Source: Spirochaetales bacterium (GTDB lineage: Bacteria > Spirochaetota > Leptospiria > Leptospirales > Leptonemataceae). From it: 64,000 nucleotides of DNA. Each line of letters begins with the position of its first letter. The first letter of the stretch is position 1. This document shows positions 2,069-41,126 of the stretch, piece after piece. The position numbers and the translations under genes were made by a program. The notes below the pieces were generated by a model. It worked only from the letters and a program-made list of their open reading frames with translations. It did not search any database and was not told where the DNA came from. The stretch is from positions 124,001 to 188,000 of the forward strand of contig JABTUL010000003.1 of the NCBI GenBank assembly GCA_015075425.1. Direction: 5' to 3'.

Positions 2069-2755
2069 TTATAGATTATACTGATAAAAGCTAAAGATAG
2101 AACCTGTCCTTTCGATGTCGCAGGCCCGGCCCCCCAAACTTCCGGCAAGGGTAGCGACCACAGGCAGGTCTGTGGTGCTGGCAATGCAGCCAGGGGAGCA
2201 GACCTGGTGTTTCTCCATGAGCAGTACTGTCAGGCTGCCCGTTACCAGGCGTGTTCTTTCCTGGCAGGTGCGAGCGGTTTCTTCCACGTAGTCCAGATGG
2301 TCTTTGACGGGAGCCAGATGGGATGCTACCAGACCGGCAGAGATCATCGCCGTCGGGAAATGAGCTTCCAGGCGTTTTTGACAGAACAGGTCCGGGCTGG
2401 AATGGCAGTAGGTGAGAAGCCCGCTCACAAAGCCCTGTTCTGCGGCAGCACCCACAAGGGTGCGAACTTCGCGGGCATTCAGCGCACCGGCCGGTTTGAG
2501 CGGAATGAAAAGGCAGGAAAGTAAGGGCAGGATCAGGATAAGCAGTGCGCCAAACAGCCGCAATTGACCCCGGGTTTCCGCCCGGTAGAGCGACAAAAGG
2601 TTTTCCACACGATATTCGCAACTGCCGCACCCGGTGGTTACTCCGGTTACTTTTGCGAGAGCACGCAAGCTTCTGTGTCCGGCAGCCATTGCCGCCAGCA
2701 GATCCTGCCTGGTCCGACCCGTGCAAAAACAGATCATTTCAGTCGATTCTTTCAC
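2069..2755 (-). CDS. BFD-like [2Fe-2S] domain fused to a cysteine-rich lipoprotein-family domain
   Basis: A 228-residue frame with two unlike parts. Residues 7-55 look like a bacterioferritin-associated-ferredoxin (Fer2_BFD) domain: C9-x-C11 and C43-x2-C46 would bind a [2Fe-2S] cluster. A hydrophobic stretch follows (about 66-81) ending in LLSC, resembling the lipoprotein signals of the three upstream paralogues. The rest matches those paralogues, with the conserved cysteines and the C-terminal RTGSIFSFYQYNL. The GTG start overlaps the TGA of the preceding gene as GTGA, supporting translational coupling. An internal TTG just before the hydrophobic segment could start a separate lipoprotein, in which case two products share one frame. 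How an N-terminal cluster domain coexists with export is unclear. Confidence 0.6.
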   Translation of the reverse strand: MKESTEMICFCTGRTRQDLLAAMAAGHRSLRALAKVTGVTTGCGSCEYRVENLLSLYRAETRGQLRLFGALLILILPLLSCLFIPLKPAGALNAREVRTLVGAAAEQGFVSGLLTYCHSSPDLFCQKRLEAHFPTAMISAGLVASHLAPVKDHLDYVEETARTCQERTRLVTGSLTVLLMEKHQVCSPGCIASTTDLPVVATLAGSLGGRACDIERTGSIFSFYQYNL

Positions 2756-3294
2756 TCAAGGAACTGCAGGAACGGAAGGTCCAGGTTGAATTGATACAGG
2801 GATATGATATTGCCCGTTTTTTCAATTTTGCAGAGCTGAGAGGCAATGATGGCATTGGTCAGCGCAGCGTTCTGAACTTCGCCTTCTGAGGCTCGCACGC
2901 AGGTGAAAAAATTGCATTGCTTCTTGCCATTGAGGTGATTTACGGTCAGAAGGTTCATCACAACATTGAACTTCTTCTGGCAATCAACGACGCTTGCCGG
3001 AATGTAGCTTCCGTCTTTATCAAGACCCAGGCGACTCTGGGCAATCAAGCGGGTGAAGACAAGGCCGGTGGCCAGGCTGCCGCTGTAACCGCTCAAACAA
3101 TCTTCTGGTGGGTCGAACTGACTGCAGAAACCAAATACTCCCAGAAGAAAACTTGTGCTGGCTGTCTGCTGTATGTCTTTGATCGCATCATCGCCCGATA
3201 CGGACCCCAGCGGTTCAATGAGCCCCGTCCGGTTGGTCAGCAGGCAGGAAGATATGTTTGTCAGAATCAGTAAAAAGATTAGCAGGTGTTTCAT
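2752..3294 (-). CDS. Cysteine-rich lipoprotein, tandem family member
   Basis: A 180-residue predicted lipoprotein. The ATG at 3294 gives a clean signal peptide with Cys17 (ISSC) and has a GAGAG-like ribosome site; the frame stays open further upstream but without a signal. It shares with its neighbours the pattern LLGVFGFC, a C about 8 residues later, mid-protein cysteines (VDC, QCNFFTC), and a terminal CxxExTGNIISLYQFN motif. The cysteines after the lipid anchor probably form disulphides in the periplasm or at the surface. No known domain is recognised; Leptospira-type organisms have several lineage-specific lipoprotein families and this appears to be one. It overlaps the downstream BFD-fusion gene by 4 bases. 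Confidence 0.65.
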   Translation of the reverse strand: MKHLLIFLLILTNISSCLLTNRTGLIEPLGSVSGDDAIKDIQQTASTSFLLGVFGFCSQFDPPEDCLSGYSGSLATGLVFTRLIAQSRLGLDKDGSYIPASVVDCQKKFNVVMNLLTVNHLNGKKQCNFFTCVRASEGEVQNAALTNAIIASQLCKIEKTGNIISLYQFNLDLPFLQFLE

Positions 3295-3302
3295 GTTTTC
3301 TC

Positions 3303-3821
3303 TCAAAGATTCAAAGGGCTCAGGCTTACAACGCGCCCCGTTGGCAATAGCTGGCAGGTAGGAATGACAAAGCGGGGCAACAGCTGTCCGGCCTCTACTA
3401 TGGCTGAACGATCCGGTCCGCATACGCTACCATTGCAGGACACTTCACGATGCAAACGTCCGTAGGTAAACAGGTGCCCGTGGTTGAATACGCTTTCCAG
3501 GCAATCATCTACCGATCTTTTCCGGTAGTAGGTTTTGCTGCGTGCCGGGTTGTAAGGCCCGGATAGTTTTCCAATATAAAAGAAACCTTCCATTAAAGCG
3601 CCCTTTGTCTCAATCATACAACCGTTAATATCATTGAAATGAGTGCAATACCCGTAAACCCCCCAGTAGTAGCCGGCAATGGCCCGGTCCTCAATGGCAA
3701 TGCGAACATGATCTCCAGCCACGCTCTCCATGGGCGGAATGTTCAATTGATCCGTGAGCAGGCAGGAGGAAAGGGAGCAGCCGAAGAGCAGAATGCAGAG
3801 TTTGAATGACTGTATGTTCAT
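3303..3821 (-). CDS. Cysteine-rich lipoprotein, tandem family member
   Basis: A 172-residue lipoprotein with a signal peptide ending in LSSC (Cys20). It keeps the family pattern seen in its neighbours: PPMESVAGD after the anchor, GVYGYC and a second cysteine, DDC, the pair CNGSVC, and a C-terminal motif PTGRVVSLSPLNL. Its ATG overlaps the TAA of the preceding paralogue by one base (TAATG), so the tandem set is probably one transcript. The function is unknown. Divergence from its neighbours is large outside the cysteines and the C-terminal motif, which points to old duplications rather than recent copies. Confidence 0.65.
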   Translation of the reverse strand: MNIQSFKLCILLFGCSLSSCLLTDQLNIPPMESVAGDHVRIAIEDRAIAGYYWGVYGYCTHFNDINGCMIETKGALMEGFFYIGKLSGPYNPARSKTYYRKRSVDDCLESVFNHGHLFTYGRLHREVSCNGSVCGPDRSAIVEAGQLLPRFVIPTCQLLPTGRVVSLSPLNL

Positions 3822-4348
3822 TAGAAGTTGATATCGTAGAAAGAGAGAATCGATCCCGTGCGCACAGGATCACAACTGCTTGAGGAGCGCAGTACCGGTA
3901 CAATCGCCGCATCAAGGAGGAGTGTTCGATCAATGCTGCAGGTATTGGTGCTTTTGTTACAGGATACCTTCCCTTTGAGGAATTGATCGGTGAGAAGGGT
4001 AGTCTCAATCGACAGAGTTCTTTCGCAGCGCTGGATGCTGCGCTCGGTGTAAAAGGCCTGTGAATCAATGCGGCGCATCTGGGGGATGAGCAGACTGGTG
4101 GCCAGAGATCCGTAGAAGGCAGAAATGCCAACGGCATCCAGACAATTGAAATCACTGTAGGAAGAGAGGTCGGTGCAAAAACCTAAAACGCCGGTCAGAA
4201 AACCGGTATGGACGCTCTGTTTGATGCGGCTGCGGGAATCTATACCGGAAACGGAATCCAGCGGAGCCAGGCCCATGTTGCTGGTAATCAGGCAGCCACA
4301 GACCAGTCCGGCCCCGAGGGCCGGGATCAGCTTCCGAGCAATGCGCAT
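3821..4348 (-). CDS. Cysteine-rich lipoprotein, first gene of the tandem set
   Basis: Started at the ATG at 4348 the product has 175 residues and a basic, hydrophobic signal ending in VCGC (Cys19). The frame stays open upstream, but that extension is rich in Lys/Arg and looks non-coding. Family features are LAPLDSVSGIDS, GVLGFC with a following cysteine, QRC, the pair CNKSTNTC, and the C-terminal CDPVRTGSILSFYDINF. It lies 40 bases downstream of the biotin carboxylase gene on the same strand, so it may be transcribed from that promoter. Role unknown. Confidence 0.62.
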   Translation of the reverse strand: MRIARKLIPALGAGLVCGCLITSNMGLAPLDSVSGIDSRSRIKQSVHTGFLTGVLGFCTDLSSYSDFNCLDAVGISAFYGSLATSLLIPQMRRIDSQAFYTERSIQRCERTLSIETTLLTDQFLKGKVSCNKSTNTCSIDRTLLLDAAIVPVLRSSSSCDPVRTGSILSFYDINF

Positions 4349-4388: not shown

Positions 4389-7361
4389 TTAGACTTCAAT
4401 TTGGGCCATGAATTCCGCCGTAGCTTTTCTCTGGCGTGCGGCTTTTTCCGCGTCGGTTTCAAGGACAATTTCCTCATCCGGTTCGATAGCAAAAAGCGGC
4501 TGGCCTTTGCGCACAACATGTCCCTTGTCGCCATCCACCAGCAGGTTTGTGACCGTTCCGGAAAATTCCGCGTAGACCTTATTGAACATTTTCATAACTT
4601 CCAGCACGTAGAGGGGATCACCGGCATTGAAATGCTGGCCCTTTTCCACCAGCGGAGGCCGGTCCGGACTTTCGCGCGTGTAGAACATCCCCCCGGTAAC
4701 AGCAAGTATTTCTTTGCCGGTGGGAGCGGGTGGTGGCGCCAGTGCTTTAATGAGATCCGCTGGAGAACGGGCATACAGATCCGGTACCCGTGGTTTTAAG
4801 TCGATGTCCATGGTGAATTCATGCAGACGGGCCTGGAAGCCCATGCGGATGGGGATTTCCAGTAAGGCGAGTCCAGCCTGCCAGGCCAGATGGGATTCGG
4901 CACATTTCCGGAAAAGATCTTCACGAATTCTGCTGCCCGGCTCCCCATCCAGTTGCCCCTGTCGGAGACTCGCATCCAGCTTCCGATATGCGCTTCCGCT
5001 GTTTGGGTGCGATTGATCCAGGGCCCGCCGGTATTCGCCTTCCGAATCCAGCTCAAGAGCAAATTCCAGATCGGCATAGAACCCCAGTCCTTTTTGTAGC
5101 AATTCATGGTCATGGTCCCACATGCTGCGCGAGCCGCTATCAGGACGGAATTCCAGATTCAGATAGCGGTACAGGTCGTTTAGAACGTGCAGTGGATTGC
5201 GCAGCCAGACCATACGCTCTCCTTCCATGCGAAAGGCCCGATTGTGGTTGCGGACAAACCAGCCATTGTGCTCATGCGGACGGGACAGCAGTACGGAAAT
5301 GGGCCGCAGGACGAGTGTTAACTTGCTGCCGATGGCCTGTTGCATCTCTTTGCCGTAGCGCTGGACAGTTGCCTGCACAAGAGTCGTCCAGGCAGCCTCC
5401 AGATCGAGCTCCTGGGCCACACGGGCCAGCGCACCGGAGGCAGATAGGAACATGGGCACAAACCGGGTCGAGGGCGTGAGCATCGGGTGCAGTCCCAGGC
5501 AGAAATTGAGTATTCCATAGTGGAAAGATAGATTGGTGGCCAGATCCTGGCCGCGCAGCTCCGTGCGGCGCAGTATGTCTGCCAGCCGCTCAAGCATATC
5601 CCGGCGTCCGCGGCCGTGAGTTACGATGAGAGCAATGTTGGAGTCGTAGGCCCCGGCCAGGTAGTAGTGGATGAATCCGCCCGTATCGGGATTGCGGATC
5701 CCGATTCCCTGGTCATCACGAATTTCATCGCTTACGGGCGGTGACCAGAATTCAATACGCCCGCCAGCAGCGGGCTGCAGGGCATCGTTGGTTGCATTCA
5801 GGCGGATTTCTCCACCCGCAGTATGGCGGGAGATTCGCTCCGGACGGGGCAGACGACTCTTGTGGGCGGCAACCAGGGCCATGGCTTCCACCAGAGAATC
5901 GACCACAAAACTTTCGCCGGGGTTTTCCGGGCTGGTAAATCTCAGGCTGTAGACCATTTCCGTGACGCGATGTTCTACCTGAATGCGCGTATTCATTTCC
6001 ATGAAGTAAAAACTGTTACCGGCAACTATGCATTCAAACGTCGATGCGGAATCGAGCTTTACCGCACGCCCGAACGATTCTGCCTGCGCTTCCATGCTTG
6101 CGAGCATGTCGCGCTCGCGTTTGAGTTCTTCCACCAGGTTATCATGAGAATCTGCCAGTGCTTGCTGCAGCTCATGCTCAAAGAGTTCTCTGGTGATGGA
6201 AATTTCCACCAGTTTTTGTTCGTGCATCTGCAGACTGCAATCACGTCCGCCCAGAGCGATGGACCATTCGCCATTGCCCAGCAACTGGATTTCATTGTGG
6301 CGCGTTTCTTCGATGTTGAGTTCGATCAAAAAGTTTTTATTGTCTGCCGGTCCCATCGCCTTGGATTCGGAAAGGACCTGGAAGATGGCTTCATCGGTAT
6401 CCTCAATTTTTGCAATGATGCGCTGCCCTTTGCCACCGCCACCACCGATGTATTTCAAGCGAAAGCGCTTGCCTGGATTGTCGCGGAAAAGTTCGGTAAG
6501 TTGCCGGCGTGCTTCACCCTGAAGTTCTTCCAGTGAGATCAGCGGGCGGCCCGCCTGGTAACCTGCCTGCAGGATAGCTTCGGCATAGTCTTCCGGTGAA
6601 AGTGCGCCGGCCGCCACCTGAAGTCCATTTTTTGCCGCAAAGGCCTCCAGTTCTTCGAGGGTCTTGCCGGCTTTGCGAATCAAGGTGAGGGCGGTGATAT
6701 TGTCCACACCAGGGGTAACGGAAACATTGAGTCGACGGGCCAGCTTTTTGGCTTCGTCTTTGGAACCGGCCAGGCGCTGCACATGGGATGAAGGGCCCAT
6801 AAATCCGAGTCCGCTCTGTTCTATGGCCTCGACAAAGCCCGCGTCCTCCGCCATGAAACCATAGCCGGCAAAAATATGTGTGTAGCGGTAATCTTGTGCG
6901 ATACGAATGATCTGTTCAATACGAGCTTTCCGCTCCTCACCGCTGGCTCCGGAATAATCGGGTACCCGATGAATGAGGTCCTGATTCTTGATCTGGCGCA
7001 ATTCGGGAGCCAGAGTTTGCGCATAAGTGACGGAGTCTTTTTCTGAAAGCAATATGCCGGCTTCCACGCCGACGGCGGCAAAAACATCGAGCGCTTCTTT
7101 GCGGATGGGTCCGCGGCAAACGATGAGAATTTTCAGTTTGCTCAGGTCAAAACTGCGAACCCAGGGGGAAGGGGAGGCGAGGTATTTATTTTGCACCGCA
7201 TCCAGGGGCGACTGACCTTTGGATGTGTCAACCTTAATCCCGATCCAGGCCTCCGGGTAATGCGAAGAACTTGACCGGGGGGCCACAGGCGCTTTTTGAG
7301 CCTGTGGCCTACGGGGGGAGTTCGGGTTGGTAACAGACGAGGCCGCGCTTTTCAGGCTCAA
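4389..7361 (-). CDS. Biotin carboxylase-biotinyl carrier fusion (acyl-CoA carboxylase type)
   Basis: About 990 residues. After a low-complexity N-terminus, a biotin carboxylase domain begins near residue 76 (LKILIVCRGPIRKEAL), with an ATP-grasp glycine loop YIGGGGGKGQR and the signature FMEMNTRIQVEHRVTEM. The C-terminus is a biotinyl domain with EVMKMFN; Lys924 is the expected biotin site. The region between may be a scaffold. There is no carboxyltransferase domain, so a partner is needed, perhaps part of the divergent 1837-residue enzyme or a gene elsewhere. The ATP-grasp domain carries an insertion before the glycine loop. The longest frame starts at a TTG (7361) without a Shine-Dalgarno sequence and overlaps the divergent gene; a GTG at 7286 or a later codon may be the true start. 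Confidence 0.85.
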   Translation of the reverse strand: MSLKSAASSVTNPNSPRRPQAQKAPVAPRSSSSHYPEAWIGIKVDTSKGQSPLDAVQNKYLASPSPWVRSFDLSKLKILIVCRGPIRKEALDVFAAVGVEAGILLSEKDSVTYAQTLAPELRQIKNQDLIHRVPDYSGASGEERKARIEQIIRIAQDYRYTHIFAGYGFMAEDAGFVEAIEQSGLGFMGPSSHVQRLAGSKDEAKKLARRLNVSVTPGVDNITALTLIRKAGKTLEELEAFAAKNGLQVAAGALSPEDYAEAILQAGYQAGRPLISLEELQGEARRQLTELFRDNPGKRFRLKYIGGGGGKGQRIIAKIEDTDEAIFQVLSESKAMGPADNKNFLIELNIEETRHNEIQLLGNGEWSIALGGRDCSLQMHEQKLVEISITRELFEHELQQALADSHDNLVEELKRERDMLASMEAQAESFGRAVKLDSASTFECIVAGNSFYFMEMNTRIQVEHRVTEMVYSLRFTSPENPGESFVVDSLVEAMALVAAHKSRLPRPERISRHTAGGEIRLNATNDALQPAAGGRIEFWSPPVSDEIRDDQGIGIRNPDTGGFIHYYLAGAYDSNIALIVTHGRGRRDMLERLADILRRTELRGQDLATNLSFHYGILNFCLGLHPMLTPSTRFVPMFLSASGALARVAQELDLEAAWTTLVQATVQRYGKEMQQAIGSKLTLVLRPISVLLSRPHEHNGWFVRNHNRAFRMEGERMVWLRNPLHVLNDLYRYLNLEFRPDSGSRSMWDHDHELLQKGLGFYADLEFALELDSEGEYRRALDQSHPNSGSAYRKLDASLRQGQLDGEPGSRIREDLFRKCAESHLAWQAGLALLEIPIRMGFQARLHEFTMDIDLKPRVPDLYARSPADLIKALAPPPAPTGKEILAVTGGMFYTRESPDRPPLVEKGQHFNAGDPLYVLEVMKMFNKVYAEFSGTVTNLLVDGDKGHVVRKGQPLFAIEPDEEIVLETDAEKAARQRKATAEFMAQIEV
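7281..7309. promoter_or_regulatory. Perfect 10-bp inverted repeat between two divergent carboxylase genes
   Basis: GGCCACAGGC at 7281-7290 and its exact reverse complement at 7300-7309 are separated by nine bases. The repeat sits where the 5' ends of the two biotin-enzyme genes meet. It could be an operator for a factor controlling both genes, or an RNA hairpin in the leader of either. No A/T-rich tract follows it, so it is not a typical intrinsic terminator. Its regulatory role is an inference from position and symmetry. Confidence 0.5.
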
Positions 7362-10300
7362 CCCGGGCTACAAACCCCGGTCCGCATCGCGTAACGGCAG
7401 ACTGCAAAAAGTCTTGATTGCCAATCGAGGGGAGATCGCCCGTCGCTTCTTTTTGTCTCTCCTGGAAATGGATATACCCACCGTTGCTGTGGTTACGGAT
7501 CCCGATCGAGGTCAGTCCTGGTATGAACATGCTTCCGAAGTCGTGTACATCGGTGATGCCCGTAACTATGTAAACGGGCAGGTGCTGCTGTCTGCTGTGC
7601 GGCTTTCTGGTGCCAATGCCGTCTATCCGGGCTACGGCTTTCTGGCAGAAAGCCTGACCTTTGCTCGTGCCGTAGCAGAACTCAAAGACGTGATTTTCAT
7701 GGGGCCGGCCGCACCGGTGATGGAGCGGGTGGCGGACAAGCTGAGCGCCCGGCAACTGGCCCGCTCCTGTGGTATGCGTCTCTTTCCGGCTTCCACTGCT
7801 CTGGCTGATGTGGAGGGCGCTGTGGCTGCCTTTGAGGAAATGGGCGGGCCGGCATTACTCAAGCTCAATGCTGGCGGCGGGGGCAAAGGCATGTCCGTTG
7901 TGCGCAGTCAGGCCGATGTACGCGCAGCGGTGCCGTCCATCATGCGTCTCGGGCAGAGCATTTATCATGATTCCAGTTTTTACCTGGAAAAATTAATAGA
8001 AAAACCATCGCATATAGAAGTGCAGGCCTTCAATCTGAGTGCGGTTTCTTTGCGCAAGTGTGCCGTGCAGAGGCGCAATCAGAAAATCATTGAGGAAACG
8101 GCGATTCTGCCGGAGGCCCTGGCCCGGGCAATGCTTGGCGATGCATCGCTGATCCTTGATGCCGCAGAGTACGGTCAGGCCGGCGCGGGCACGGTGGAAT
8201 TCCTGCTCGATGAAGACAGCGGTGAGTTCGGGTTTCTCGAGATGAACACCCGATTGCAGGTAGAATACGCAGTTACAGATCTTTCCTGTGGCATTGATAT
8301 CGTGCGTTGCCAGATCGAGCACTTTGATGGTCGGGAGATTCGGCTCAAAGAAATGCCATCCGTGGCCCATGCCATTGAAGTGCGATTGTACGCGGAGGAT
8401 GTGTACAACAACTATGCTCCCGCGCCGGGCTGGCTCGAAGAACTGGAGCTGCCCGGATTTTATGGAGTCCGTTCTGATAGTGGCTATCGGGCCGGGGATC
8501 GCATCCTGCCTGACTATGATCCCATGATCGCCAAGATTATTGTGCAGGGAGAGAATCGGTCCGTGGCTCTGGCGCGACTCAGACGAGCGTTGCGCGAAAT
8601 TTTTGTGCGCGGTGTGGCCACCAACGTACCCCAGCTTCTGGCCATCGCTGCACACCCGGATTTCATAAGTGGTGCTTACAATAACAATTTGCTCAAAGAC
8701 AATCCAGAGCTGGAACAGGAAATCTGTGATGAGTCTGTTGCCAGCCGACTGGCGGTCCTTTCTGTTTTATGCGAGTACAGAAATGATCAGGAAGAACGTT
8801 TGCAGGAAAGTCGCTGGCTTGAGGATCTGGAGAAAGTGTCCGCCGATCCGGCTCTGCGCGACTGGCCCAACTGCTTTGATGTTCGGCTGCCTGGGCGGAC
8901 CTGTCAGGTGCGCGTGGTTCAATATGACCGCTTCCATTTTGCTCTATGGTTGGATGGTCAGGAGGCCGGCGAAGCCGTAATCATGCATGCCCGCCCGCGT
9001 GACGGTCGCTTTCGTATCGCATTTTGTGGTCAGAGCTATTCTCTGGACCTTGACCGCAGACCCCAGAGTCATCTGGTCCGTCTGAGTGGAGCCGATGGCG
9101 GGCCTGTGTACATGCGAGTGCAGATTCGACCGGCACAAAAGGATCGACCTGAGGATGGACCAGGGCTTGTGCGCGCTCCCTTTCAGAGTGCTTTTGCCGG
9201 CTGGCCGGAAGAAAAGCCTTCCGTTGGTGATACTGTAACAGCCGGCCAGCCACTGCTCCTCATTGAAGCGATGAAAATGGAAAGCGTTATCCGGGCCCCG
9301 CTTTCCGGAACTTTGCTGCGGATGGTTGACGCCAGCCGCGAATCCGGGCGTACCTTTGCGGAAGGAGAGTTGCTCGCTGAGATCAGCGCAAACGAATCGC
9401 TTAAGCCTGGGACCACTGTTGTTTCTGTGCAACCGGACAGGTTGGCGGAGGCCCTTTTTGCCGGTTGTGGACCGGAGGAACTCGACTTACAGCTACAGAA
9501 AGACCCGGAACACCTCTCCTTTTGCTTGCGACTCTGGAAAGCCTGTTTCGCCGGATACTATTCGGAAGAGGCAATTCTCGGGCGGCTTTCTGCCTGTCTT
9601 GAGCGCAGCACGGATGCGTCAGGGTCGGTGCAGGGTCCGCTCTCCCAGGATATTCTCAGTTTTATTGAGGAAATCCTTTTTTTCTATTCCAGTGTGAAGC
9701 AGCTGTATTCACCGGGCCTGCGGGAACAGTTTTCCTTTTACTCGGAATTATCCCACCTGTATCAGAAACGTCACGACGAACGTTTCCGGCTCTCTTTTGG
9801 ACTGAAAGCCACTCTCAGTGCTTTCTTTGATAAGCTGGGTTTTGCCGATTGGGAAGCTCAGGTTGAGCAGCAGGAAGCAGCTTTCTTTCTCCTGCAACGG
9901 GCCGCCAGGGCCGCTCAGATTTACAAAGGGTCATTACTCTGGATTGTTTCGCTTTTGAAGAAGGCCCCCGAATTCTCCAGCGGCCTTTACCAGTTGATCA
10001 GTCGTCTGATTCTGATCGAACAGACAGAGCCTGAAAATGCTCTGGCTCTTGCGCTGCGTGACCTTCTGGAATCCCATCCCGCTCTGAGCCGCAATCTGGA
10101 AGCATTGCATGGACAGAGTCGTAAGTATTTTCAAGAGTATCGAACTTTCCTGCGTGATCCTTTTGCGCTGTTTGCCCCTGAACCGGCTGAACTTGTGAAG
10201 GAACGCATGCAGGCGGCCTTAACTGATGGATCTACGAATGTGCTTTCCCCTGGGCGGGAACGGGAAATAGCTCAGCGCCTGGCCGGCCGCCGGGTAGAGA

Positions 10301-12840
10301 AACATCGCCGGCTGTATGTACCGGATTCCTCAGCAGCCCTTTTTGAATTTCTTCTGGAGAATGGTCGTCGGGAGTACGCCTGTTTTGTTTTTCTCTCCGG
10401 CGATTCTATGCAATTCAAGCACTCTGCGCAGGGAAAGATCATCGCCTCAGAAAATCTGGAACAAGCAGGACTGCTGGGCATTTACCTGCTCTGGGCCTAC
10501 CGTCAGATTCAGGAAGTGGATGGGAGTTCTCTGGAACTTCTGGTAACGGGGACCCCTTTGACGACGGACTTCATTTCTGGCGACGAAACTTTATTTAATT
10601 ATACTACTTTACTTAAGATTTGCTATCCGATTTTTCGTTTTTTTGTCAGCATTGAAGTCGATCGTGTTTTTCTGGATCTTCCTTTGCAGACAGCCGGTTC
10701 CAAAGTGCGTCGTCGTCTCTTCAGTATTTACAATCGTGGCGGCCGTCTGCAACTGGACAAAGTTTTTGCCGATGATGCGCTTTCCCCCTACTGGAATGGA
10801 TCTGTGTCGCCGTCGCAGCGCCTCTACGATCGGAAAAAATGGCCACTTGAAGCGTGGCTCGAAGAACTTTTGCCGGAATTCGAAGAAATATCTTTGCCTG
10901 GTGAGTGGGGAGATCTGGCCGCCAGACTGGTTCATGGAACTCTGGACGGACGGCGGGTGTGGGTTTACCTGAAAGATTCACGGTTACGCGGCGGGGCTAC
11001 CGGAAATGGCGAAGGGCTTCTGTATGCTATGGCTGTTTACCTGGCATTGCGTTGCGGGGAGCAGTTATTTGTCATCAATGACGGTGCCGGAGCCAATATC
11101 CGTGAAGGGATGGTGGCTTTGAATCGCGCGGCGGAGGGCTTTTTTATGAATGCCCTTTTGCCGGCCATCCTCGGGGACCGCCTGGATGAATGGATTGCAC
11201 ACCATCCTGACCGGCAGTTGCGGGAACTCTTTGACCAGGCCAATGATCTGGTGGCTCTGAATAAAAACAAAAGAAATTTTATGATTCTGGCAGTGGGTGC
11301 CGGTTCCTCGACAGGGCTGGATGTGTACGGATCCGCTCAGGCCACTTTACAGATCATGATGGATCATCAAGAATCGTACCGCGTTCTTACCGGGTCTACA
11401 GTCATTCGTAGTGTAACCGGTGAAAGTTATACGAACTATGAGATAGGCGGAGGGCGAGTGATGGCCCATTGGACCGGGACAGTGGATCTTCTGGCCAGCG
11501 ATCATTTTGAACTTCTTACCCTGTTGCGCCGCCTCAGTGCCGTCATGGATGAGCGGGTCAGCGTGGCATTGCCTGTGGTAGAAGTTCCCCCATCTGCTAC
11601 GGAAGATATCTATGTGATCAATGAGCGATTCTTGCAGGAGACGCTGGCCGGTTTCATGAGCCTCAAAGCAGAATACGTGCAGGCGGGGGCTCTGGTGGGA
11701 GGGGTCGGCCGTCTGGCCGGCGAGCGAGTACTGGTCCTCGGGCCGCGCACCCATTTTGGGATTCGTTCCAGAGCCAGCGTGGAGCGAGCGCGAGATCTGC
11801 TGCGGATGGCCCGGAAAACCGCGAGCGCAACGATACTGGTCTCCGGACGCACTTGGTACAATGCCCTGGGTGAGGCGGATGATGCCCTGGATTTGCGGGA
11901 GGATTTTCTGCGCACTCTACAGGAACGCTCGGCACCGCGCTTTGTTGTGCTTACCCACGCGGATGGACTCCAGAAACTATCGCTGGCCAGTTCGGCCGAT
12001 GTTTTGATTTATACCGGTTCCGGCAATCCCTCTTTGCCCGCTTTGATCTGTCGGGATTTGAAGGAAGCCTTTGCACGGATCGGGCAAATCCTGGCCTGGG
12101 CTCGCGGACCCGCTGAAAGCAGGAGCAGTGGTTCATCTTTTGATCTGCCGCCCTCAAGTCTACAGGCCTTTGATGTGTGCCATGTCATTGATGCTCTGGT
12201 AGATCAGGAAACCTTTCTGCCGTTCTGGGAGCAGCACTGTCCGGGTTTTGTAACGGGAATTGCCAGGCTCGGTGGTCGTTCCATCGGTGTCCTTGCCGAT
12301 CAGCCCCTGATTCAGGGAGGAGCCGCTGATGCACCGGGCACCCGAAAATTCCGGAAATTCATAGAAAAAATGGAAAGATTACAGGTCCCCGTGCTCATGC
12401 TCTCTTCTTCTCCCGGATTCCTGCCCGGCCTCAAGCAGGAACGATTGCGCATCCAGCAAATTGGCGGGGAAAGCCTGGATGTCAATGTGCAAAGTCGCAT
12501 TCCGATTCTTTCGGTTACCCTGGCGCAGAACTACGGGGGGCGACAGATCCAGGCCTTCAGTAAATTTCTCAGGCCCGGCATAACTACTTTTGCCAGATCC
12601 GACTCCATCCTGGCCGTAATGGGGGCCACAGCCTCCTTTGATCTTTTTCACGGCAGGGAGTACAAAAGCTTGCAGCAGGCCGGCAAAACAGAAGAGGCCC
12701 GACAGTTACGGGAAGAGTATATAGAGGCCTACAACCGGCGCAGTGCTGCCTCAGAAGACGCCCATCGACAGAATAATATCGATTATTTTTATAAAGATCT
12801 GGCGGATCTGCGGGCATACTTAATTCGTGGTCTTGCGTAA
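7327..12840 (+). CDS. Single-chain biotin-dependent acyl-CoA carboxylase (BC-BCCP-CT)
   Basis: A 1837-residue protein with all carboxylase functions in one chain. The biotin carboxylase spans about 26-480 (LIANRGEIARRF, ATP loop NAGGGGKGMSVV, FLEMNTRLQVEYAVTD). A biotinyl domain follows with EAMKMES; Lys650 is the biotin site. Residues of about 700-1150 are a linker. The carboxyltransferase N-terminal half lies around 1200-1480 (SRLRGGATGNGEG, VINDGAGANIREG) and the C-terminal half to the end (GGAADAPGTRKFRKF). This layout resembles eukaryotic-type acetyl-CoA carboxylase and large bacterial acyl-CoA carboxylases; the acyl substrate cannot be told. The usual VEH of the carboxylase signature is VEY here. 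The TTG start at 7327 is supported by GGGGGGAG six bases upstream. Confidence 0.85.
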   Translation: MVTDEAALFRLNPGYKPRSASRNGRLQKVLIANRGEIARRFFLSLLEMDIPTVAVVTDPDRGQSWYEHASEVVYIGDARNYVNGQVLLSAVRLSGANAVYPGYGFLAESLTFARAVAELKDVIFMGPAAPVMERVADKLSARQLARSCGMRLFPASTALADVEGAVAAFEEMGGPALLKLNAGGGGKGMSVVRSQADVRAAVPSIMRLGQSIYHDSSFYLEKLIEKPSHIEVQAFNLSAVSLRKCAVQRRNQKIIEETAILPEALARAMLGDASLILDAAEYGQAGAGTVEFLLDEDSGEFGFLEMNTRLQVEYAVTDLSCGIDIVRCQIEHFDGREIRLKEMPSVAHAIEVRLYAEDVYNNYAPAPGWLEELELPGFYGVRSDSGYRAGDRILPDYDPMIAKIIVQGENRSVALARLRRALREIFVRGVATNVPQLLAIAAHPDFISGAYNNNLLKDNPELEQEICDESVASRLAVLSVLCEYRNDQEERLQESRWLEDLEKVSADPALRDWPNCFDVRLPGRTCQVRVVQYDRFHFALWLDGQEAGEAVIMHARPRDGRFRIAFCGQSYSLDLDRRPQSHLVRLSGADGGPVYMRVQIRPAQKDRPEDGPGLVRAPFQSAFAGWPEEKPSVGDTVTAGQPLLLIEAMKMESVIRAPLSGTLLRMVDASRESGRTFAEGELLAEISANESLKPGTTVVSVQPDRLAEALFAGCGPEELDLQLQKDPEHLSFCLRLWKACFAGYYSEEAILGRLSACLERSTDASGSVQGPLSQDILSFIEEILFFYSSVKQLYSPGLREQFSFYSELSHLYQKRHDERFRLSFGLKATLSAFFDKLGFADWEAQVEQQEAAFFLLQRAARAAQIYKGSLLWIVSLLKKAPEFSSGLYQLISRLILIEQTEPENALALALRDLLESHPALSRNLEALHGQSRKYFQEYRTFLRDPFALFAPEPAELVKERMQAALTDGSTNVLSPGREREIAQRLAGRRVEKHRRLYVPDSSAALFEFLLENGRREYACFVFLSGDSMQFKHSAQGKIIASENLEQAGLLGIYLLWAYRQIQEVDGSSLELLVTGTPLTTDFISGDETLFNYTTLLKICYPIFRFFVSIEVDRVFLDLPLQTAGSKVRRRLFSIYNRGGRLQLDKVFADDALSPYWNGSVSPSQRLYDRKKWPLEAWLEELLPEFEEISLPGEWGDLAARLVHGTLDGRRVWVYLKDSRLRGGATGNGEGLLYAMAVYLALRCGEQLFVINDGAGANIREGMVALNRAAEGFFMNALLPAILGDRLDEWIAHHPDRQLRELFDQANDLVALNKNKRNFMILAVGAGSSTGLDVYGSAQATLQIMMDHQESYRVLTGSTVIRSVTGESYTNYEIGGGRVMAHWTGTVDLLASDHFELLTLLRRLSAVMDERVSVALPVVEVPPSATEDIYVINERFLQETLAGFMSLKAEYVQAGALVGGVGRLAGERVLVLGPRTHFGIRSRASVERARDLLRMARKTASATILVSGRTWYNALGEADDALDLREDFLRTLQERSAPRFVVLTHADGLQKLSLASSADVLIYTGSGNPSLPALICRDLKEAFARIGQILAWARGPAESRSSGSSFDLPPSSLQAFDVCHVIDALVDQETFLPFWEQHCPGFVTGIARLGGRSIGVLADQPLIQGGAADAPGTRKFRKFIEKMERLQVPVLMLSSSPGFLPGLKQERLRIQQIGGESLDVNVQSRIPILSVTLAQNYGGRQIQAFSKFLRPGITTFARSDSILAVMGATASFDLFHGREYKSLQQAGKTEEARQLREEYIEAYNRRSAASEDAHRQNNIDYFYKDLADLRAYLIRGLA

Positions 12841-40649: not shown

Positions 40650-41126
40650 TTAGAAATTCATCCGGTCAAAGCTTACGATGGGGCCGGCTGCTTCCAGCGC
40701 GCAAAAGGAATGAAGCACACTGGCCGGCCCCAGGGAGTCCTTGAAAATCCTGTCGATAACATCGCGCGAAAAGCCCCCCTGCTTCGTAACCTGGTATTCA
40801 GTGAGAATCAAAAGCCATCCGGCCGTCAGCTCGCGATACACAGGCATGCACCGCCGGACGCTTTCGCTGGAGAAGTGGGTTGCCCCTCCGAACTGCACCA
40901 GAGCCACGGCCATCTTACTGCCGACCAAAGCCTTCTCCATGGCCGGGCCTTGAAGGTCTCCGGGCAGTCCACGGGATGTGAGGGCAAGCAGAAAGCTGCC
41001 AACAAACATTTGTTCCAACCGGGCTTCAATGGCCGGCCGCGGAACAGAATCGGAAGGCAACTCCAGTCTATCCCAGAGCAGGCAGCCGGAAAAAAGAGTC
41101 AGGAGCAGGGGGAGGTAGCGTTTCAT
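40650..41126 (-). CDS. Small lipoprotein, distant member of the tandem family at 2-4.3 kb
   Basis: A 158-residue lipoprotein with the signal ending FSGC (Cys15). It shares with the 2-4.3 kb cluster the sequence LLWDRLELPSDSV after the anchor (compare LLTDQLNIPPMESV), a mid-protein SVRRC, and the C-terminal CALEAAGPIVSFDRMNF, matching the TGxIxSxxxxN end of the others. It lacks some of the cysteines of the cluster members. The function is unknown. It lies upstream of the glutamine synthetase on the same strand, separated by 38 bases. Confidence 0.6.
   Translation of the reverse strand: MKRYLPLLLTLFSGCLLWDRLELPSDSVPRPAIEARLEQMFVGSFLLALTSRGLPGDLQGPAMEKALVGSKMAVALVQFGGATHFSSESVRRCMPVYRELTAGWLLILTEYQVTKQGGFSRDVIDRIFKDSLGPASVLHSFCALEAAGPIVSFDRMNF

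Follow-up and report, generated by a model that had tools for sequence, protein, structure and literature searches.

Lipoproteins assigned to the leptospiral TIGR04452 family in tandem and dispersed copies, most likely small disulfide-locked outer-membrane proteins

What are the small genes that follow one another at 2069-4348 in the 64,000-nt stretch of DNA analysed here (the window), and does the C-terminal ending that they share serve as a recognition signal? An earlier note on this DNA had described four tandem genes, and a fifth at 40650-41126, as lipoproteins with a lipobox, spaced cysteines and a strict C-terminal motif, and could match them to no known domain with confidence. All five open reading frames (ORFs) were present at these positions (Table 1).

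The five genes and their relationship

The tandem set is transcribed in the order gene 4, gene 3, gene 2, gene 1. Genes 4 and 3 overlap by one base (3821), genes 3 and 2 are separated by 8 bp (3294/3303), and genes 2 and 1 overlap by four bases (2752-2755). These measured spacings bear out the operon-like arrangement proposed in the earlier note, and the four genes are probably co-transcribed. A 990-aa biotin-carboxylase-like gene (4389-7361, -) ends 40 bp upstream of gene 4 on the same strand. No terminator-like site was found between the two, and the operon may therefore begin at the 990-aa gene. This gene itself adjoins a divergent one (7327-12840, +) encoding 1837 aa; both products resemble biotin-dependent carboxylases, their starts overlap and their lengths are unusual (the 1837-aa protein was judged by eye).

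Table 1. Positions of the lipoprotein genes and their parts in the window.
Feature	Position	Strand	Length	Lipid Cys	Further Cys	C-terminal end	Remarks
Lipoprotein gene 4	3821..4348	-	175 aa	Cys19	6	TGSILSFYDINF	first of tandem set
Lipoprotein gene 3	3303..3821	-	172 aa	Cys20	6	TGRVVSLSPLNL	
Lipoprotein gene 2	2752..3294	-	180 aa	Cys17	6	motif TGNIISLYQFNL + 10 extra residues	
Gene 1, whole open frame	2069..2755	-		residue 81			
Gene 1, lipoprotein part	2069..2563	-			6	TGSIFSFYQYNL	signal peptide MRLFGALLILILPLLSC; possible internal TTG start at 2563
Gene 1, BFD-like [2Fe-2S] domain	2564..2755	-					residues 1-64 of gene 1 frame; Pfam match 2594-2737
Dispersed paralogue (40650 gene)	40650..41126	-	158 aa	Cys15	2	AGPIVSFDRMNF	

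Each protein has a lipobox (LLSC in gene 1, ISSC in gene 2, LSSC in gene 3, VCGC in gene 4 and FSGC in the 40650 gene). Leave-one-out profile HMMs were run against the 516 window ORFs of at least 60 codons, and in every run the omitted gene ranked directly behind the training set, with E-values of 2e-11 for gene 1, 8e-27 for gene 2, 3e-19 for gene 3 and 2e-25 for gene 4. The 40650 gene was recovered only weakly from the tandem four alone (E = 0.0016). When paralogues from elsewhere were included in the profile, the values were 1.3e-9 for the 40650 gene and 1.3e-19 for gene 1. Furthermore, when all window sequences were left out of the profile, it picked up these five window ORFs and no others, at 2e-24 to 3e-6 (3e-6 for the 40650 gene); the next window ORF stood at E = 1.1. 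On these profile comparisons, the five genes are true homologues, beyond chance, and profiles and lipoboxes agree on the tandem lipoprotein family that had been proposed.

Assignment to TIGR04452 and its distribution

The family proved to have a known match after all. The NCBIfam model TIGR04452 (Lepto_Lipo_YY_C, "TIGR04452 family lipoprotein"), with a curated cut-off of 28 bits, scored gene 4 at 39.1 bits and gene 2 at 28.3 bits, both over the cut-off, and gene 3 at 27.0 bits, 1 bit under it. The lipoprotein part of gene 1 and the 40650 gene gave no direct match to this model, and two of the five window members thus lie below its detection. Searches of Pfam, PDB sequences and PHROGs with the lipoprotein part returned nothing useful, with no match in Pfam. 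These missing matches would suit a separate new family that resembles TIGR04452 only in its signal peptide and composition. This we regard as barely plausible: three of the five proteins reach or come close to the curated cut-off, and the likeness persisted when signal peptides were removed. The mature sequences of the five window proteins aligned in hhalign with members from other genera at E = 3e-8, and a profile of the genome's own members (19 rows) aligned with 19 members from other genera at 97.8% and E = 8e-13; probabilities over the two comparisons were 95-98%.

In the latter alignment the lipid Cys falls on the lipid Cys, and Y-x4-SV-x2-C falls on YY-x4-DV-x2-C. The lipid Cys and the Cys of the Y...C motif are invariant in the 19 rows, and the later Cys is present in 18 of the 18 complete rows; the 40650 gene has F in place of the motif tyrosine. 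The alignment with other genera ends after the Y...C motif, and the C-terminal half is therefore linked to them by the order of cysteines alone. Window and TIGR04452 members have in common the lipobox, a G-x-[ED]-[AV] region, the (Y)Y-x4-[SD]V-x2-C motif, a second Cys shortly before the C-terminus and, in the genomes searched, restriction to the leptospira order. They differ in length (mature parts of 144-164 residues in the window versus about 96-130), in the two additional Cys pairs of the tandem four and in the window tail, TGxIxSx4N(L/F). We conclude from their sequences that the five previously unassigned genes belong, gene 1 and the 40650 gene by profile, to TIGR04452, as an ordinary lineage-expanded set within a catalogued and functionally uncharacterised family. 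The earlier note had named an already characterised family as grounds for giving up its proposal; the family turned out to be catalogued, but its function is uncharacterised, and these grounds apply in part.

Across the whole genome, the TIGR04452 model marked eight places, five of them over the cut-off, whereas a profile built from eight members (A2) found 16 loci at E < 1e-8. The family thus extends well past the reach of its current model. About 11 of the roughly 16 paralogues lie outside the five window genes, and most stand as single genes among neighbours that by eye look unrelated. The paralogue tree was mostly unresolved and did not group the tandem genes as one clade. TIGR04452 was present in 14 of 30 genomes of the leptospira order; among 296 genomes of the phylum, these 14 were the only carriers, and none was found in 14 controls. 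A scan of the genome collection with gene 4 as query found no relative, and the same scan with the closest outside orthologues showed close relatives in two Leptospiraceae metagenome-assembled genomes. What is new here is the presence of about 16 copies in one bacterium, the pairing of their cysteines, and a tail motif that is local and not family-wide.

Leptospiral lipoproteins are of interest as surface antigens. A TIGR04452 gene of L. interrogans Hardjo was lowered in an in-host chamber (log2 -1.69; PMC13066512), in a study that names TIGR04452 and records no function for the family. A table in the same paper lists an LA_0364 family Cys-rich lipoprotein of Leptospira, which resembles the window proteins, by name alone, in being Cys-rich and leptospiral; the NCBIfam scan of the window genes did not report the LA_0364 family.

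Three variants of the family were also seen. One paralogue (L080:3984-4862, G000:C2) is apparently enlarged: its mature part measures 276 aa and contains eight cysteines beyond the lipidated one. Another member (L078:3963-4442, G000:C4) has a good C-terminal half and no convincing signal peptide, and is possibly a decayed or frameshifted copy. In other genera of the order (L026 and L023), the TIGR04452 domain is followed by long in-frame regions that by eye look repeat-like, an architecture variant.

Cysteine pairs, predicted fold and the ferredoxin-like domain of gene 1

We counted the cysteines after the lipid Cys in 43 complete members, comprising 18 rows of the 19-protein mature alignment, 24 members from other genomes and the 276-aa paralogue. 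The number was even in all 43, a result that is in part trivial, as the invariant pair is all that most members possess. The complete rows of the 19-protein alignment have two, four or six such cysteines, and the only row with an odd count is a sequence ended by the contig end; all 24 of the further members have two or four. The invariant pair occupies alignment columns 95 and 155. Optional cysteines at columns 42/53 and 121/129-131 are either both present or both absent, and in one paralogue a pair has moved to 37/56. This gain and loss of cysteines in pairs points to disulfides. In the genome, VKOR and DsbA domains lie together in one 428-aa frame (G000:C1:1927367-1928476), a fused disulfide-forming enzyme, and a further DsbA is encoded as well.

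An AlphaFold2 model of gene 4, built with 19 sequences (residues in mature numbering), was confident, with a pLDDT of 86.1 and a pTM of 0.81. It describes a four-helix bundle (helices 17-43, 51-73, 84-109 and 124-140) with two short strands, 14-16 and 81-83. The turn that connects helices 1 and 2 has Cys40 on one side and Cys51 on the other, Cys112 and Cys119 are carried by strands 111-113 and 118-120, Cys90 lies within helix 3, and Cys141 directly follows helix 4. Confidence in the tail is low (54-78), so that the part played by the tail in the fold is uncertain. The model of a short member from another genus (pLDDT 76.5, pTM 0.70) has the same order of elements, strand-helix-helix-strand-helix-helix-Cys-tail. 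Foldseek searches of the models against the PDB and viral models gave nothing under E = 0.001. The family thereby gains a structural reading, that of a helical bundle whose presumed disulfides are gained and lost as whole pairs of cysteines.

The reading that we favour, with a probability of roughly 0.8, is that these genes are about 16 diverged copies of leptospiral TIGR04452 lipoproteins, which are lipidated and form small disulfide-held helical bundles at the outer membrane. A Sec-type lipoprotein signal peptide would direct export, followed by cleavage and lipidation at the lipobox Cys. Lol transport to the outer membrane would then be expected, because no Asp follows the lipid Cys in these lipoproteins and the genome encodes LolA; this presumed address rests on signal peptide, lipobox and LolA under E. 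coli rules. With about 125-170 residues here, the mature part would fold as a small helical bundle, held near the membrane by a short linker. The invariant disulfide would connect the beginning of the C-terminal tail with the helix that lies behind the (Y)Y-x4-[SD]V-x2-C motif, while the optional second and third disulfides would staple the helix 1-2 hairpin and the beta hairpin before helix 4. The proteins are thus most likely small disulfide-locked outer-membrane lipoproteins, with a biochemical function that we can only infer: presumably they are diversified cell-envelope or surface lipoproteins with a binding or structural role.

Could the cysteines instead be ligands for metal, haem or a cofactor, so that the lipoproteins would act in redox reactions or carry metal? 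The six Cys of the tandem four would allow it, and a redox role would suit the BFD ferredoxin domain in the open frame of gene 1. We consider such a role very doubtful, since the cysteines come and go two by two at fixed spacing, most members have a single pair, CxxC or CxxCH is not conserved, and BFD domains are part of cytosolic modules, on the opposite side of the membrane.

The BFD domain itself was clear. The first 64 residues of gene 1 matched the bacterioferritin-associated ferredoxin-like [2Fe-2S] domain (PF04324) at E = 3.7e-11 and 43.6 bits, against a cut-off of 26, with all four ligand cysteines (C9, C11, C43 and C46) intact and with 40% identity to a BFD found elsewhere in this genome. 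The segment has a typical BFD length and stops exactly where the lipoprotein signal peptide starts at TTG. The frames that hold other BFD matches in the order are either short (about 64-150 aa) or larger; unlike gene 1, none of those shown is known ahead of a lipobox. The combined frame may be a fusion; alternatively, translation may begin internally at the TTG at 2563, or the frame may stem from a misassembly. Seen alongside the ten residues by which gene 2 overruns the motif, the arrangement resembles the insertion of a BFD segment between two lipoprotein genes. If gene 1 were made as a single polypeptide, with a cytosolic BFD ferredoxin as the pre-region of the lipoprotein, signal peptidase II would release an outer-membrane lipoprotein and leave the ferredoxin anchored in the membrane, so that one chain would yield two proteins. 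We think this quite improbable.

The C-terminal motif

The five proteins share TGxIxSx4N(L/F), the T being replaced by A in the 40650 gene, and among the 516 window ORFs the pattern [TA]Gx[ILV]xSx4N[LF] was present in exactly these five. The motif is terminal in four of them; gene 2 runs ten residues past it (NL-DLPFLQFLE). The shared motif described in the earlier note therefore held for all five, its strictly terminal position for only four. In the genome's other paralogues, the motif G is mostly kept, and S and N are mostly lost (CKLDETGKVVHITPALSL, CKVEETGNVFETGEFGW, CSLQESGKLISAGGQNI). Members from other genera have different hydrophobic endings, for example IDWPIPLF and EPFPKL.

These observations bear on the proposal that the motif is a recognition tag for a dedicated export, surface-display or assembly factor. 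Its limitation to the five family ORFs in the window would fit a tag, as would the poorly ordered tail of the model, since a docking peptide might look the same; moreover, the last residue is L, F, I, W or Y in most members. A sorting tag would be expected to be the same family-wide and to have a partner gene, and we found neither: one of the five overshoots the motif, its S and N are gone from most own-genome paralogues, other genera end differently, and no recurrent partner gene was seen near 13 dispersed paralogue loci, where ORFs were inspected by eye. Such a tag therefore seems unlikely, and the partner recognition suggested earlier was not borne out. Judged by its distribution, the motif has the look of a local trait, not of a sorting tag used throughout the family. 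Given its decay in paralogues, and with no recurrent neighbour seen on inspection, we interpret the tail as part of the structure, fixed in place by the last disulfide. In this subgroup, TGxIxS...N(L/F) would be a short strand past that disulfide, forming part of the fold.

Two other sets of C-terminal endings were encountered in the same genome. A lipoprotein-like ORF beside a paralogue (L079:4565-5536, G000:C1) ends in a hydrophobic stretch and RIRS (AFALLALAGLYGYSRIRS), resembling a C-terminal sorting tail. At L081:5393-6053 (G000:C1), two tandem small lipoproteins of 106 and 116 aa share another C-terminal ending, YCTVVYGE in the one and DCIVVWGE in the other.
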